Source: a virus. From it: a stretch of DNA of 38,646 nucleotides. The DNA lies in IMG/VR virus record IMGVR_UViG_3300042922_000673, positions 1 to 38,646 of that record. One strand, 5' to 3'. This document shows positions 45-38,632 of this stretch, piece after piece (within the stretch, counting starts at the first letter, position 1; every line of letters starts with the position of its first letter). The position numbers and the translations under genes are program-made. The notes under the pieces are model-generated. The model was given only the letters and a program-made list of their open reading frames with translations. It was not told the DNA's origin and ran no database searches.

Positions 45-386
45 ATGTCAGAAATTACCGCCCTCAACTACAAGCAGCAGCTCGCTGCGGCAGTCAGAGC
101 CGAGTGGGGTCGCCTCGGACTGAGCCGGACGGAGTTCCAGAAGGTTATCGGTCGCAGCCGACCTACTGCCGCGAGCAGATGGGAAGGCGAGTCCGACTAC
201 ATCGCATCCGAGCTTGAGAAGATCGCTTCTCGCTTGGGCATCACCCCCTACAACCTCAACGAGTCCGCCGCCCTGGGCGTGCGGTTCGCTGAGAGCAACA
301 CCACGGACGACGAGGTGGCGCGGATTACCCCGCCCGTCGACGTGTACGCCCAGCCCGCCCGCTCCAAGGCGCGGAGGGCATCATGA
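45..386 (+). CDS. Cro/repressor-like helix-turn-helix protein
   Basis: This 113-residue protein has an HTH-like segment (about residues 22-50, including LGLSRTEFQKVIGRSRPTAA) followed by EGESDY and a second helical stretch ending GITPYNLNES. That layout matches small XRE/Cro-type phage regulators. The ATG at 45 is chosen because it sits six bases after the -10 box, with no Shine-Dalgarno sequence. As the first gene of the early operon behind a palindromic operator it is probably the Cro-like or immunity regulator, but I cannot tell Cro from CI by sequence alone. The tail (residues 80-113) is polar and probably disordered. It overlaps the next gene by ATGA. Confidence 0.7.
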   Translation: MSEITALNYKQQLAAAVRAEWGRLGLSRTEFQKVIGRSRPTAASRWEGESDYIASELEKIASRLGITPYNLNESAALGVRFAESNTTDDEVARITPPVDVYAQPARSKARRAS

Positions 387-5043: not shown

Positions 5044-6003
5044 ATGACCTGGTTCAAGATCGATGACGGGTTCTGGTCCCACCCGAAAGTCCTCGAGCTA
5101 TCCGACGAAGCCGTCGCCCTCTGGGTAAGAGCCGGCTCGTACTGCGCTGGACACCTGACCGACGGCGTCGTCAAGCGCGGGACACTTCGGCTGTTAGGCG
5201 CAACGCGCGACGCGGCCACCGAGCTGGTCTTGGCGGGCCTTTGGGACATCGACGGGGAGACCTGGACGTTCCATGACTGGGATGTCTACCAGCCGACCCG
5301 CCAGCAAGTAGAGGCCACGCGCGCGTCCGACCAGCGGCGTCAGGAGCTTTCCCGCAACCCGCAACTGCGCGATGCGATCCGTAGCCGCGATGGAGGCGCC
5401 TGCCGGTACTGCGGCATCCACGTGAACTGGGCGGACCGCAAGGGAACGGGTGGTGGGACGTACGACCACATCAACCCCTACGGACCGAACACGCTCGAGA
5501 ACCTCGTTGTCGCATGCCGCGCGTGCAACTCGAAGAAGGGGCAGCGCACACCCGAACAAGCGGGGATGAGAATCCGGCCCGTATCTGGATCCGATCTAGT
5601 GACAAATCAAGCCCCGTCCCGTCCCGTCCCGACCCGACCACTAACTGACTACGTCAGTCAGTCCGGAGAAGACAGACAGGCGGAACAGCGGTCGGCAGCA
5701 ATCATTCAGGGTCTCGGAATCGACCCCAAAAAGCTGCGCACGCATATCGAAGCGAAAGCCGGGACACCGGCATCAGCAACCGAAGCCATGCGCATCGCAA
5801 CCGAGATCCTCGCCCGTGGCGGAGACGTCACACACCCACAGCGGTACGTCCTCAGTTCCATCACCAAGAACCCCGACGAGATCCGCACCTCACTCCGAGC
5901 AACAAGACCCGCATCCAGACCCGAGCGGGAACCCGAATGCGACATCCACACCGGGTACCCGCTCCCATGCCACCGATGCGCACAAGAACAGGCAACCCCA
6001 TGA
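5044..6003 (+). CDS. Replisome-organiser-like protein with internal HNH domain
   Basis: The 319-residue protein is modular. Residues 1-90 (WFKIDDGFWSHPKVLELSDE onward) match the winged-helix N-terminus of phage replisome organisers. Residues about 110-180 form an HNH nuclease (RDGGACRYCG, TYDHINPYGPNTLENLV, ACRACNSKKG) with intact Asp/His and both CxxC pairs. A low-complexity linker (PSRPVPTRP) follows, then a helical C-terminal domain (GLGIDPKKLRTHIEAKAGTP) and a final Cys/His motif (CDIHTGYPLPCHRC). The ribosome-binding site is GGGGG near 5033-5037. It probably nucleates phage replication; the nuclease insertion is unusual for an initiator. Repeats in the linker DNA may be part of the origin. 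Confidence 0.75.
   Translation: MTWFKIDDGFWSHPKVLELSDEAVALWVRAGSYCAGHLTDGVVKRGTLRLLGATRDAATELVLAGLWDIDGETWTFHDWDVYQPTRQQVEATRASDQRRQELSRNPQLRDAIRSRDGGACRYCGIHVNWADRKGTGGGTYDHINPYGPNTLENLVVACRACNSKKGQRTPEQAGMRIRPVSGSDLVTNQAPSRPVPTRPLTDYVSQSGEDRQAEQRSAAIIQGLGIDPKKLRTHIEAKAGTPASATEAMRIATEILARGGDVTHPQRYVLSSITKNPDEIRTSLRATRPASRPEREPECDIHTGYPLPCHRCAQEQATP
5613..5658 (+). repeat. Iteron-like pentamers plus palindrome; possible origin
   Basis: Inside the organiser gene, CCCGT occurs three times (5613-5627), then CCCGA twice (5628-5637). A palindrome, ACTGAC-TAC-GTCAGT (5644-5658), follows directly, with an extra CAGT. Phage origins often lie inside the initiator gene, as in lambda O, so this is a candidate origin. 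It may instead be a simple-sequence linker with no DNA role. Confidence 0.3.
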
Positions 6004-6296
6004 ACACCAAACCCATCGAACTCATGATGCGGTTCCCCCCAAACGTCTGGGGGCGACTCGCAACGATCGCAGACGACCGCGGCACCAACATCGCCGACAT
6101 CATCACCACCGCCGTCATCAACGAACTCCGACCACGCGACCGACGCTCCTGGGTACTGCAGCTCGTACGACAGGGGTACAGCGACCGTGCGATTGCGGAA
6201 ACGACCGGGGAACTCAAGTCGTATGTCGGTGACGTTCGACGCGCCGCCAAACTCCCCGCCAACCGTGACCGGTCCGCTGAAAGGAGAACCGCATGA
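6000..6296 (+). CDS. Small DNA-binding protein (RHH/HTH-like)
   Basis: This 98-residue protein starts at the ATGA overlap with the organiser gene (6000). Residues 1-42 (ELMMRFPPNVWGRLATIADD, RGTNIADIITTAVINEL) resemble a ribbon-helix-helix. Residues 50-85 (WVLQLVRQGYSDRAIAETTG) read as a helix-turn-helix. Basic residues dominate the tail. It may regulate the replication operon or assist the organiser. The double DNA-binding layout is inferred from pattern only. Confidence 0.6.
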   Translation: MNTKPIELMMRFPPNVWGRLATIADDRGTNIADIITTAVINELRPRDRRSWVLQLVRQGYSDRAIAETTGELKSYVGDVRRAAKLPANRDRSAERRTA

Positions 6297-35756: not shown

Positions 35757-36008
35757 TCAGGGCGCCATTTCCAATCCGACCTGATCATCATCTCGCTCCC
35801 ACCCCAGGCGCCCGTGGTCGTCCACGGAATCATGCCAGGAAGAGAGATCTGAGATGGCGTCGGACAGGGCGATGAGGTGGCTGGCCCGGTTGACCATGTC
35901 CGCAGTGGACGTGAAGCAACGAAAGCGGTAATGCACCTCCTCGATCGCGTCCTGGATGTCGTCGAACTTCTTGGCCCGCTCGGAGAGTGCGGTGTCGGTG
36001 GTTGTCAT
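35757..36008 (-). CDS. Hypothetical leftward protein (83 aa), leaderless
   Basis: ATG 36008 lies six bases after a -10 box (TAAACT) and has no Shine-Dalgarno sequence, so it is chosen over GTG 36014. The helical 83-residue product (RAKKFDDIQDAIEEVHYRFR, ADMVNRASHLIALSDAISDL) has no recognised family. It opens the leftward accessory operon, which diverges from the DUF3263 gene. Confidence 0.6.
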   Translation of the reverse strand: MTTTDTALSERAKKFDDIQDAIEEVHYRFRCFTSTADMVNRASHLIALSDAISDLSSWHDSVDDHGRLGWERDDDQVGLEMAP

Positions 36009-36043
36009 GCACACAGTTTACCGAACCGTGCCACCAATCACAA
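36009..36043 (-). promoter_or_regulatory. Leftward promoter of accessory operon
   Basis: On the minus strand, TTGTGA (36043-36038) and TAAACT (36020-36015) are 17 bp apart, with six bases to the ATG at 36008. This layout suits a leaderless transcript that could be made in the lysogen. Confidence 0.6.
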
Positions 36044-36084
36044 CACTTTCCAACGATGTCGGTGGCCGCGTGCACACTCCTCTT

Positions 36085-36315
36085 ATGGACATGACGCGGC
36101 TCCTCGACTTCGAACAGGAATGGGGCACGCACACAGGATGGAAAGAAGAAGCCATCCGCCGGCAACTCGGACTCACCCCCGCCCGGTACTACCAACTCCT
36201 CGAACACGCCATCGACACCACCGAAGCACTCCACACACACCCCATGCTCATCCACCGGCTCACAAGGATCCGCGACACACGACGGACACAACGCGCGCAA
36301 CGACGCAGCGCCTAA
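36085..36315 (+). CDS. DUF3263 protein
   Basis: The 76-residue protein matches the actinobacterial DUF3263 family: LLDFEQEWGTHTGWKEEAIR, then RQLGLTPARYYQLLEHAID, ALHTHPMLIHRLTRIRDTRR. It is probably a small DNA-binding protein. The start at ATG 36085 has no clear ribosome-binding site and may be leaderless. It is divergent to the accessory operon and ends at a strong terminator. Confidence 0.75.
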   Translation: MDMTRLLDFEQEWGTHTGWKEEAIRRQLGLTPARYYQLLEHAIDTTEALHTHPMLIHRLTRIRDTRRTQRAQRRSA

Positions 36316-36323
36316 CAACCCGA

Positions 36324-36366
36324 AACGCCCCCACCGCGCATAGTCAGCGGTGGGGGCGTTATTCGT
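36324..36366. terminator. Strong bidirectional terminator
   Basis: A 14-bp perfect stem, AACGCCCCCACCGC (36324-36337) with GCGGTGGGGGCGTT (36347-36360), has a nine-base loop. A T-rich tail (ATTCGTTTTT) follows on the plus strand, ending DUF3263. On the minus strand the same stem would end the small transcript starting near 36504. Confidence 0.88.
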
Positions 36367-36418
36367 TTTTGGGGGACAGCATCGTCCAAGGTTGGTGCGT
36401 GTACTGCGGGCTCGCCAT
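36359..36418 (-). CDS. Possible micropeptide (19 aa)
   Basis: The frame ATG 36418 to TAA gives MASPQYTHQPWTMLSPKNE, the third tiny ORF in the transcript driven by the 36540 promoter. No ribosome-binding site is clear. Its stop lies at the edge of the terminator stem. It may be fortuitous. Confidence 0.2.
   Translation of the reverse strand: MASPQYTHQPWTMLSPKNE
36374..36387. repeat. Hairpin repeat copy 2 (GGACAGCATCGTCC)
   Basis: This 14-base inverted repeat differs at one position from the copy at 36433-36446. Both lie in the putative leftward transcript and form GGAC/GTCC hairpins. Confidence 0.6.
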
Positions 36419-36424
36419 TTTGGT

Positions 36425-36457
36425 CTACGCCCGGACACCATCGTCCGGGCTGGTCAT
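36425..36457 (-). CDS. Possible micropeptide (10 aa)
   Basis: ATG 36457 overlaps the stop of the 16-codon ORF (ATGA) and encodes MTSPDDGVRA. The codons coincide with hairpin copy 1. Coupling makes it possible but it may be chance. Confidence 0.15.
   Translation of the reverse strand: MTSPDDGVRA
36429..36450. repeat. Hairpin repeat copy 1 (8-bp stem)
   Basis: GCCCGGAC (36429-36436) pairs with GTCCGGGC (36443-36450) with a six-base loop. The core GGACACCATCGTCC is nearly identical to copy 2. There is no T tract, so it is not an obvious terminator. Confidence 0.65.
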
Positions 36458-36504
36458 CTTCTGGCTGCCACCTCGCCCCACCGGCCTGGGTTCGTTGTCT
36501 GCAT
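36454..36504 (-). CDS. Leaderless micropeptide ORF (16 aa)
   Basis: ATG 36504 lies exactly 36 bases from the first base of the -35 box, the same as the early HTH gene. It encodes MQTTNPGRWGEVAARR and stops. Leaderless translation would give a 16-residue peptide. Alternatively the ATG is incidental and the transcript is a regulatory RNA. Confidence 0.35.
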   Translation of the reverse strand: MQTTNPGRWGEVAARR

Positions 36505-36540
36505 GTCCCTAGTATGCGTCTGTAATTAACGACATGTCAA
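36505..36540 (-). promoter_or_regulatory. Leftward promoter duplicating the early promoter
   Basis: Minus strand: TTGACA (36540-36535), 18-bp spacer containing CGTTAATTACAG, CATACT (36516-36511), six bases, ATG at 36504. It shares TTGACATG, TAATTAC and GACG with the 9-44 promoter at identical spacing. The operator palindrome is imperfect here (two changes), implying weaker binding of the same regulator. Confidence 0.65.
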
Positions 36541-36558
36541 GTGGACTTGCGCTGACTG

Positions 36559-37746
36559 TTACTCAGTGACCTGTTTCAGACGCCGAACACCAGACAAAGT
36601 GCTGCCAATCGCGTCAGCCATCTGCATGTGCGCATCCGGCTGAAGATGCCCGTACGTGCCCACGGTGGTCGTGATGTTCTCGTGTCCGAGCCTCGCCTGC
36701 ACGAACGGCAACGGCACACCTGCAGCGATCAACCAGGACGCGTGCGAGTGGCGTAGGTCGTGTGGGTTCGGGTTCTTCCGCAGCACCTCCACGCCCGCTT
36801 CCTCGCACAGCTTCTCGTCATGCGCTCGAGCCATCAACGGCAACCACACGTTCGACCGGAAGCTCGAATGCATCATCGCCTTACCCGTGCGACTCGGGAA
36901 CACGAGCTCGTCCGCGGGCCCCGGTTCACCCAATGCCGCGATCACATCCGGCGTCAGACTGACCGTGCGGTTCGACTTCTTCGACTTCGGCTGCTTGAGC
37001 ACCTTCTGACCCCGCGGTGCACGCTTCCATGCCTTATCTATACGCACGGTCGGCGGCGTCCCGGTCAGGTTCAACTTTCCCCACGTCAGCGCGGTCGCTT
37101 CACCCCACCTGCAGCCGGTGCCGGCGAGGAACATCAGGAACCCCACGTACCGGTCGGGTGTGAAGTACAGGATCGTCGAGAACTCTTCCGGCGTCAGGAA
37201 CACGCCCTCACGCTTCTCGCCACGCGTGATCCGCGTCTTCCATGCAGGGTTGTCATCCCGCAGCTTGTGCTCCACGGCGGCCCGCAACGCCGCGGACAGG
37301 ATCGAGTGGTAGTTCTGCACCGTCTTCTGCGACACCGGCTGCTTACGCCCCTGCGACAGTTGCTTCTCCTGCCACGACACCCACCGGCCGACGTCAGCCT
37401 TAGTGATCGCATCAACCGGCATATCGCCCAGGATCTGCAAGAACGATCGCTCGGCGGCGCGCTTGTAGTCCTCCCTGGTGCCTTCCTCGATGCCAGTCAG
37501 CATTCCAGATGCGGCGTCCAGGTAGAGCTCTGTCCAGTCCTTGAGAGACGGTGTCGTGTGGATGCGTTGGCGGGCCTCGAGAACCTTGACCGCGGCATCC
37601 CATCCGATCTTCTCGACACGACTGGCGAAGTCCTTCGCGCCCTCGATGTGCAGGAATGTCTTCTGCTGCGGCTTCCCGTCTACCCGCGCCTGCACCCGGT
37701 AGCGGACCTCGCCATCGGCATTGGTGCGCGCGCCGATGCTAGCCAC
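36559..37746 (-). CDS. int: Tyrosine integrase
   Basis: GTG 37746 is chosen because AGGAG lies six bases upstream; GTG 37770 would add eight residues and overlap the upstream gene more. The 395-residue protein has an N-terminal arm-binding domain, a SAM-like core-binding domain (REDYKRAAERSFLQILGDMP) and a catalytic domain: Arg in GTGCRWGEA near 212, HDLRHSHASW near 328-337, LGHENITTT near 354 and the nucleophile Tyr in TYGHLQ near 363. It integrates the phage at a tRNA-like attB; the matching core is at 38045-38069. All catalytic residues are present. Confidence 0.93.
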   Translation of the reverse strand: MASIGARTNADGEVRYRVQARVDGKPQQKTFLHIEGAKDFASRVEKIGWDAAVKVLEARQRIHTTPSLKDWTELYLDAASGMLTGIEEGTREDYKRAAERSFLQILGDMPVDAITKADVGRWVSWQEKQLSQGRKQPVSQKTVQNYHSILSAALRAAVEHKLRDDNPAWKTRITRGEKREGVFLTPEEFSTILYFTPDRYVGFLMFLAGTGCRWGEATALTWGKLNLTGTPPTVRIDKAWKRAPRGQKVLKQPKSKKSNRTVSLTPDVIAALGEPGPADELVFPSRTGKAMMHSSFRSNVWLPLMARAHDEKLCEEAGVEVLRKNPNPHDLRHSHASWLIAAGVPLPFVQARLGHENITTTVGTYGHLQPDAHMQMADAIGSTLSGVRRLKQVTE

Positions 37747-37954
37747 GACAAGCTCCTGGGTAGGCGTCACACCGCACCGCCGCGCAGTCTCGGCAGTAGC
37801 CCGAGGCCAACCCGATCGTCATGTCCGTCGCAATATCCGGATCGCTGTCGAGCACGACCGCGGCACCGCAATGACACTCCAGCGGGTGGGCGCAGCCCTC
37901 AGCCCCGCGGTCGCACGTCAAGCACCAAAGGTCGTTCCGGGTGGGCGCTGTCAT
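37739..37954 (-). CDS. Zinc-ribbon protein upstream of integrase
   Basis: ATG 37954 lies five bases after GGGAG (minus strand). The 71-residue product contains LWCLTCDRGAEGCAHPLECH and CG, then YCRDCAAVRCDAYPGAC, with eight or more cysteines for one or two zinc sites. It overlaps the integrase start by eight bases, so the two are co-translated. It may assist or control integration, though no such function is known for the family. Confidence 0.6.
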   Translation of the reverse strand: MTAPTRNDLWCLTCDRGAEGCAHPLECHCGAAVVLDSDPDIATDMTIGLASGYCRDCAAVRCDAYPGACRG

Positions 37955-38044: not shown

Positions 38045-38069
38045 TGGAGGGGCTGACGGGAATCGAACC
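38045..38069 (-). other. attP core: 3' end of a tRNA or tmRNA gene
   Basis: Read on the minus strand this is GGTTCGATTCCCGT followed by CAGCCCC-T-CCA: T-loop, T-stem, acceptor strand, discriminator and CCA. The T-stem partner just upstream has one mismatch and no D- or anticodon arm follows, so this is only the 3' end. Phage genes lie on both sides (int left, immA right), as expected for an unintegrated attP. A complementary GGGGCTG 5' end fits some tRNAs or tmRNA, which I cannot distinguish. Confidence 0.7.
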
Positions 38070-38145
38070 AGTAATACCCGCACCCACCAATGGGCCATTC
38101 TGCCGCAGAATCACGCGGTTTTCACCAATTATCGCACGGACGTGT

Positions 38146-38209: not shown

Positions 38210-38632
38210 TCAGGCCCGGTGAAGCCACTGCCCAGCACCCATTCGAGCGCGTGTGTACGTGGCCTCCCCGATGCGCTGCAAGCAGTACCGCCGGTAGTCG
38301 ACGATTACCCACGGCGCGACGCTCATCTCTTCCGCGATCCACTCGGCGTCGTGGTGGATGCGCTCAAGCTCGGCATACCACTCGGGCTCAACCAGCAGGG
38401 CGGCTGCGTACGCGTCCGCCTGGCGCTCGTTAGCGGGCGTGCTGCAGTCGTGCCCGTAGTGGTGGTGCCCGAGCTCGTGCGCGATCGCAGAGCGCCGCTC
38501 AGCAGCCGTCAGAGACAGGTCGAAGTAGATGCGCCGCAGTTCGGGAACGTAGCAACCGATCATGTCGCCCGACAGGTGCGCCCCATGGACGGTGAGGCCG
38601 GCGGCCGCGGCTCGAGCGAGCAGTTCCCTCAC
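38210..38632 (-). CDS. ImmA/IrrE-type metalloprotease
   Basis: GTG 38632 follows GGGGAGG (minus strand, 38643-38637). The 140-residue protein carries HELGH (residues 52-56, zinc ligands and catalytic Glu) and a downstream NERQADAYAAALL supplying the third ligand Glu, the COG2856 signature. In ICEBs1, ImmA cleaves the phage-type repressor ImmR to end lysogeny. The repressor partner is not on this strand in the window; it may lie beyond the right edge, or the HTH gene at 45 may serve. The start is close to the window edge. Confidence 0.85.
   Translation of the reverse strand: MRELLARAAAAGLTVHGAHLSGDMIGCYVPELRRIYFDLSLTAAERRSAIAHELGHHHYGHDCSTPANERQADAYAAALLVEPEWYAELERIHHDAEWIAEEMSVAPWVIVDYRRYCLQRIGEATYTRARMGAGQWLHRA

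Follow-up and report, generated by a model that had tools for sequence, protein, structure and literature searches.

A conserved micro-locus of Microbacterium phages, predicted to encode a small RNA under immunity-repressor control

Sequence comparison among related phages confirms that the micro-locus lying between the integrase and DUF3263 genes of the window (the whole 38,646-nucleotide stretch of viral DNA analysed here) is real, conserved and previously undescribed. We propose, with a probability of about 0.65, that it specifies a small RNA made early in lytic growth under the immunity repressor, carrying a translated leaderless frame and acting in trans; its conservation and its control are both well supported, and the action of the RNA we infer. 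On this view, temperate Microbacterium phages would carry the micro-locus as a small-RNA gene in its own right. The original prediction of a discrete small transcription unit linked to a repressor is supported by the hairpins, promoter architecture and micro-ORF frame conserved in relatives.

The predicted leftward promoter (TTGACA-N18-CATACT, 36540–36511), the leaderless 16-codon ORF (36504–36454), the two GGAC-N6-GTCC hairpins and the strong terminator are all present in the window. The −35 hexamer TTGACA (36535–36540, minus strand) and the −10 hexamer CATACT (36511–36516, minus strand) are separated by an 18-nt spacer and match the consensus at 10/12 positions; no other promoter-like site of such quality occurs in 4.6 kb, and this layout before a leaderless ATG recurs in the other copies. 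The ATG at 36504, 7 nt past the −10, opens the micro-ORF (MQTTNPGRWGEVAARR*, 36454–36504, minus strand), which ends in AGA AGA TGA; its two rare AGA arginine codons (AGAAGA, 36457–36462, minus strand) are found in 25/25 copies. On the same strand lie hairpin P0 (CCA-GGCCGG-TGG, 36478–36489) with its invariant loop GGCCGG, hairpin P3 (GCCCGGAC-GATGGT-GTCCGGGC, 36429–36450) and hairpin P4 (GGAC-GATGCT-GTCC, 36374–36387), which shares the loop class of P3 (RRYGNN closed by C-G); the GGAC-N6-GTCC repeats themselves are at 36374–36387 and 36433–36446. A terminator-like hairpin (AACGCCCCCACCGC-N9-GCGGTGGGGGCGTT, 36324–36360; stem of 14 bp, loop of 9 nt) separates the locus from the convergent gene for a DUF3263 helix–turn–helix (HTH) protein (36085–36315, plus strand; PF11662, E=8.7e-25), and a tyrosine integrase gene (36559–37770, minus strand) lies upstream on the micro-locus strand. 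The predicted 185-nt transcript has a folding z of −4.2 (0/200 shuffles), to which the strong terminator included in it contributes part. The other two tiny ORFs of the original prediction, of 10 and 19 codons, do exist in the window; they are not conserved, the 19-codon frame being shifted in the 98%-identical L006, and we treat them as chance rather than as genes. The feature carrying most information was absent from that prediction, namely a palindromic operator (TGTCGTTAATTACAGACG, 36517–36534) inside the promoter spacer, whose only other matches in the window are at 15–32 and 46–63.

Twenty-four further copies, one per phage, were found in Microbacterium phages and prophages, giving 25 micro-loci with 23 distinct core sequences; Footloose is the sole named phage among them. 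The first relatives were viral contigs sharing DUF3263 and, via blastn, Microbacterium phage Footloose, and their alignment showed the micro-locus to be conserved. A motif scan gave two more copies, a covariance model built from six copies (R1) found the micro-locus in 7/367 Microbacterium genomes (one already known, six new), and an integrase search together with a second pattern added twelve. True copies are well separated from other matches: with a second model (R2) the 24 further copies all reach 60.8 bits or more and other matches in the scanned phage loci at most 13.5 bits, and with R1 in GTDB genomes true copies score 50–84 bits and all others at most 27 bits. The R1 search of 400 Microbacteriaceae returned 118 ‘hits’, all except one at chance level (≤27 bits), and an order-wide search of 396 genomes found no copy except in the Microbacterium genome used as its centre. 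A loose DNA pattern (CATCGTCC..TCATCTTCT) was rejected as a finder, matching mostly genes for acidic proteins; a scan of genome contigs with a tighter pattern yielded one true copy among 120. No Rfam 15 family matches window positions 36000–36700 at E values up to 5, none matches the locus in the other copies, and a literature match was not found either.

Every copy has a leaderless ATG just past the promoter, GGCCGG as an unvarying loop, AGAAGA, and a hairpin whose loop reads RAYGNN. The ATG lies 6–7 nt past the −10 hexamer in 25/25 copies (in L350 it is one of two adjacent ATGs). Such spacing is predictive of a leaderless mRNA in Actinobacteria (PMC4633059, on mycobacteria). Loss of promoter and hairpins in relatives that keep the flanking genes, which the original prediction had named as the outcome that would count against it, was not seen; both are kept.

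Covariation of the hairpins in related phages, proposed as a check of the original prediction, is found in P3 and P0. Together they contain 27 compensated (doubly changed) cells vs 10 expected from shuffles (0/500 shuffles), a significance that is inflated by the relatedness of the copies; their covariation score is 0.376 vs 0.167 in shuffles, and the signal is gone once the pairing is slid. Exchanges in P3 are G-C/C-G, A-U/U-A and G-C/A-U around a RAYGNN loop closed by C-G, and in P0 one pair around the GGCCGG loop shows an A-U to G-C exchange in 10/23 distinct sequences. Moreover, L353 and L360, whose RNAs are otherwise nearly identical, differ by a compensated U-A/A-U swap in P3, to which a protein-level reading is inapplicable since it sits past the stop codon. 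The sequence comparison thus shows P0 and P3 to be RNA structures under selection. A P4-class hairpin between P3 and the terminator (stems GGAC, GAGAC, GACAC) occurs in 12/25 copies, the window included. A further pairing, P1 (GCCG/CGGC), is missing in the window type and stays unproven because it is invariant wherever present. The transcript differs between copies, several of type B having neither a nearby terminator nor P4 and extending into another tiny ORF. An antisense RNA to phage mRNA acting through AGAAGATG was rejected, there being no complementary CATCTTCT site outside the locus in the window, L006 and the half of Footloose that was examined.

The frame from the ATG to AGA-AGA is kept in 24/25 copies, the exception being L010. 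The ATG–GGCCGG distance shifts in phase (18, 19, 14, ...) and the GGCCGG–AGAAGA distance shifts with it, such that 6/7 length combinations are in frame (p=0.007 for phase compensation). The amino acids are not conserved (pS 0.07 vs pN 0.07–0.09); nor is the stop itself, the codon after AGA-AGA being TGA, TGC, TGT, TCC, GGA or CAT. AGA is used about 2.7 times per 1000 codons and makes up 3% of Arg codons. We read this pattern as pointing to selection for translation up to two slow codons before P3, and not for a peptide. The original prediction had offered a regulatory RNA or a micropeptide; because pairs covary and amino acids are not conserved, the RNA is favoured; the frame would be kept for some other reason, with the micropeptide a by-product at most. 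Since UGA alternates with the Cys codons TGC and TGT past AGA-AGA, selenocysteine was considered at this position and ruled out, tRNA-Sec having scored above the cut-off in 0/7 host genomes.

What the operator contributes is a link to the immunity region. It is an 18-bp palindrome with six strand matches in the whole window vs 0.21 expected (0/100 shuffles gave as many). The site at 15–32, a predicted immunity operator, forms the spacer of a second leaderless promoter (TTGACA-operator-TACGGT-CTACCC-ATG), that of a Cro/C1-like HTH gene (45–386, plus strand), which has a leaderless start and is the first gene of the rightward early operon (gp36, the homologue in Footloose, matches PF13443). As the operator is common to both spacers, the two promoters are relatives. 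A gene with an IrrE/M78 domain (38210–38632, minus strand; PF06114) is a candidate partner of the immunity repressor. When the micro-locus promoter is compared with the rest of its own phage, the highest-ranking match, self excluded, falls on the leaderless start within the HTH immunity region in the window, L345, L138 and L318; for L138 and L318 the search covered 20–50 kb of the own phage, and their operators are unrelated (ATATGGG..CCCATAT and GATCC..GGATC). In an ATG-anchored permutation over seven phages, the observed level was reached by 4/5040 arrangements. In L005, L350, L362, L369, L314, L320 and L358 a match at operator level lies at the immunity HTH gene or no more than about 150 bp from it. 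In L005, which has 98% of the RNA in common with the window, other sequence (GGCCGTTCGGCC, CTGGYCAYATGACC) has taken the place of the promoter and first codons, and it matches the divergent HTH genes of L005 itself. In L362, L369 and L350 the match is at the HTH promoter itself, and L350 carries an identical core change (AATT to AAAT) there and at the micro-locus; in L314, L320 and L358 it is about 100 bp upstream of the HTH gene.

An immunity HTH gene was identified for 19 loci. Among these, clear operator matches number 11 (the window, L345, L005, L138, L318, L350, L362, L369, L314, L320 and L358) and fall into at least five unrelated classes; these classes were picked by eye, and their counts are less independent than the unguided best-match search. 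Two matches (L010, L319) are weak, at a chance score though on the HTH start; four loci (Footloose, L346, L351, L315) have an operator-like site about 1 kb from the HTH gene; and in two (L316, L348) the micro-locus operator does not match the immunity promoter found there, the HTH gene of L315 and L316 being perhaps that of another prophage. The operator at the micro-locus is thereby indicated to follow the phage’s own immunity type through several swaps. A second predicted immunity operator (46–63) lies over the first codons of the Cro-like gene of the window, where (45–63) it overlaps codons 1–6, suggesting autoregulation; L350, L362 and L369 are arranged likewise.

We therefore set out the following working model, in which the control steps are drawn from promoter kinship. 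The promoter, related by sequence to the phage’s own immunity-region early promoter, with the operator between −35 and −10 and the ATG at the expected transcript start, would be silenced in the lysogen by the immunity repressor and/or Cro, and would fire upon derepression or first infection; since it copies the immunity switch, the RNA is probably made only on leaving dormancy or starting infection. A leaderless transcript of about 180 nt is predicted to run leftward through P0, AGAAGA, P3 and P4 and to end at the hairpin shared with DUF3263. P0 and P3 are selected as RNA structures, and the frame from the 5' ATG to the two rare AGA codons before P3 is kept, unlike the peptide sequence. Ribosomes may begin at the 5' AUG and pause on the AGA-AGA codons, in which case the folding or stability of the RNA is probably under translational control. 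The weakest step of the model is the last: the RNA would act in trans, early in lytic growth, on an RNA or protein of host or phage. Most copies have no conserved downstream gene that it could control. A role in the lysis–lysogeny choice is plausible, given that the promoter is a relative of that of the immunity region. A more specific version, in which the ribosome pause at AGA-AGA sets the RNA fold, so that an immediate-early RNA reads the host’s rare-tRNA supply or translation state and feeds the lysis–lysogeny decision, is one we hold to be speculative and rather unlikely.

That the product is instead a micropeptide of 16–41 Arg-rich residues, made from an early-lytic leaderless mRNA whose hairpins merely tune translation, would account for the frame being kept despite compensated length changes, and for Footloose-type copies that read through to 30–41 residues with the common core SGRRVV..ARR..GVNGDPANG. 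This is unlikely, considering that pN about equals pS, that the invariant GGCCGG is read in three frames, that most window-type and nrdF-type copies stop at ARR or one codon later, and that P3 amino acids swap with base pairs (GDDGVP vs GVNGDP), so that RNA pairing is what is kept. We also argue against a leader or attenuator, in which the ribosome position on AGA-AGA would decide transcription into genes further left. Leaderless uORF attenuators precede biosynthetic operons in mycobacteria (PMC4633059; Canestrari et al. 2020, cited in PMC9031893), and, as far as these accounts describe them, they share with the micro-locus a 5' leaderless short ORF and a run of codons for one amino acid; here the ATG is 6–7 nt past the −10 and AGA AGA is in frame in 24/25 copies, the tandem codons are rare, a hairpin stands directly behind them and a terminator follows, and a second small ORF precedes the terminator in L314, L320, L353, L354, L358, L360 and L362. 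Unlike the attenuators so described, most micro-locus copies lack a downstream gene: no conserved gene under control was found, the window, Footloose and most others having no same-strand gene before the terminator and convergent DUF3263, and the follow-on ORFs have no homology to a conserved gene. Such a mechanism thus has little probability.

Regulation of a neighbour only, whether through antisense RNA or transcriptional interference against DUF3263 or through action on the integrase mRNA as lambda sib does, draws on a convergent DUF3263 in 22/25 copies and, in many, a same-strand integrase upstream; in the nrdF group the flank opposite DUF3263 is instead the 3' end of host nrdF. However, L316, L318 and L350 keep the micro-locus without DUF3263, no adjoining same-strand integrase was found in L010, L314, L320, L354, L358 and L360, and a terminator stands between the convergent units, making this explanation improbable. 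Since DUF3263 also occurs without the micro-locus in other phages, each being found without the other, and the locus also without an adjacent integrase, the micro-locus belongs to neither neighbour. The switch for integrase expression entertained in the original prediction finds no support in these six copies, in L005, in which the integrase is oriented opposite to the micro-locus, or in the window promoter, which lies downstream of int and is directed away; integrase-linked retroregulation is likewise rejected on the copies without an adjacent integrase. Least probable, and very much so, is a DNA element, a distal operator looping with or titrating the immunity repressor and giving an incidental transcript: it agrees with an operator that tracks immunity specificity across at least five classes, and leaves covarying RNA hairpins, the kept frame and the terminator unexplained.

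A small RNA acting in trans remains the preferred reading, and several known systems resemble it in part. Lambda OOP and P22 sar are short phage RNAs with dedicated promoters near immunity or early genes, antisense to cII and ant, respectively. The micro-locus RNA is likewise short with its own promoter; unlike them, it ends at a terminator short of the convergent gene, and the window has no second site complementary to AGAAGATG. The nearest case with a known role is DicF/DicB: the dicBF operon is controlled by the immunity-like repressor DicA, and DicF is processed from the operon and acts on ftsZ mRNA. In the cited account of the Qin prophage, dicBF encodes the DicF sRNA and the DicB small protein together (PMC10448788), which recalls the micro-locus; the host, E. 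coli, is different and the sequence unrelated. The closest known case is the Pleft non-coding RNA of the cluster A mycobacteriophages L5, D29 and StarStuff, which is made from a repressor-controlled early lytic promoter at the genome end, is abundant and host-toxic, has no conserved long ORF or known function, and is processed from about 500 nt to 100–400 nt (PMC5712189). The predicted micro-locus RNA is likewise small and terminated and lacks a conserved long ORF, and operator identity points to an early promoter under the repressor; in contrast to the micro-locus, Pleft RNAs are not described as having a leaderless AGA-AGA frame or covarying hairpins, and since R2 gave no match in the D29 right end (47000–49127), the Pleft RNA is not a homologue. 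The micro-locus is a member of neither the Pleft nor the DicF/DicB family. Repressor-controlled early small RNAs of mycobacteriophages are without known function or clear sequence constraint; the micro-locus represents an independent family whose structure covaries, whose leaderless frame is constrained and whose operator follows immunity type through several swaps. As Footloose carries it and its host is culturable, the role of such RNAs is directly testable, and as a practical marker the operator helps to read the immunity type of a Microbacterium prophage.

Several minor observations were made at or near these loci. In the group of L138, L010, L314, L320 and L360 the phages contain or adjoin the 3' end of the ribonucleotide reductase gene nrdF, evidently their attachment site. 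In the window, GGTTCGATTCCCGTCAGCCCC (38046–38075, minus strand), between the integrase and M78 genes, is the 3' half of a tRNA gene and a probable attP core; ARAGORN detected no whole tRNA in the window. In the prophage L318 the micro-ORF (6194–6283, minus strand) stays open for 110 codons, through P3, with no Pfam match, and past the element in L320 (around 5280–5460) lies a Cys/His-rich ORF of 47 residues (MRDLDSICEACEARLGDNDHC..), also with no Pfam match. The second very short ORF 3' of P3 in L314, L320, L353, L354, L358, L360 and L362 (MGHHxRR.., MGYHQRR.., MEQQRR..) again has AGA AGA near its start, and in Footloose-type copies AGAAGA recurs immediately before the terminator. Finally, the window (positions 1 and 38646) and the L006/L345 contig (42.5 kb; L326, L328) share their start base and their end point, which fall in the immunity region; the assembly may break there because strains differ in their immunity modules.
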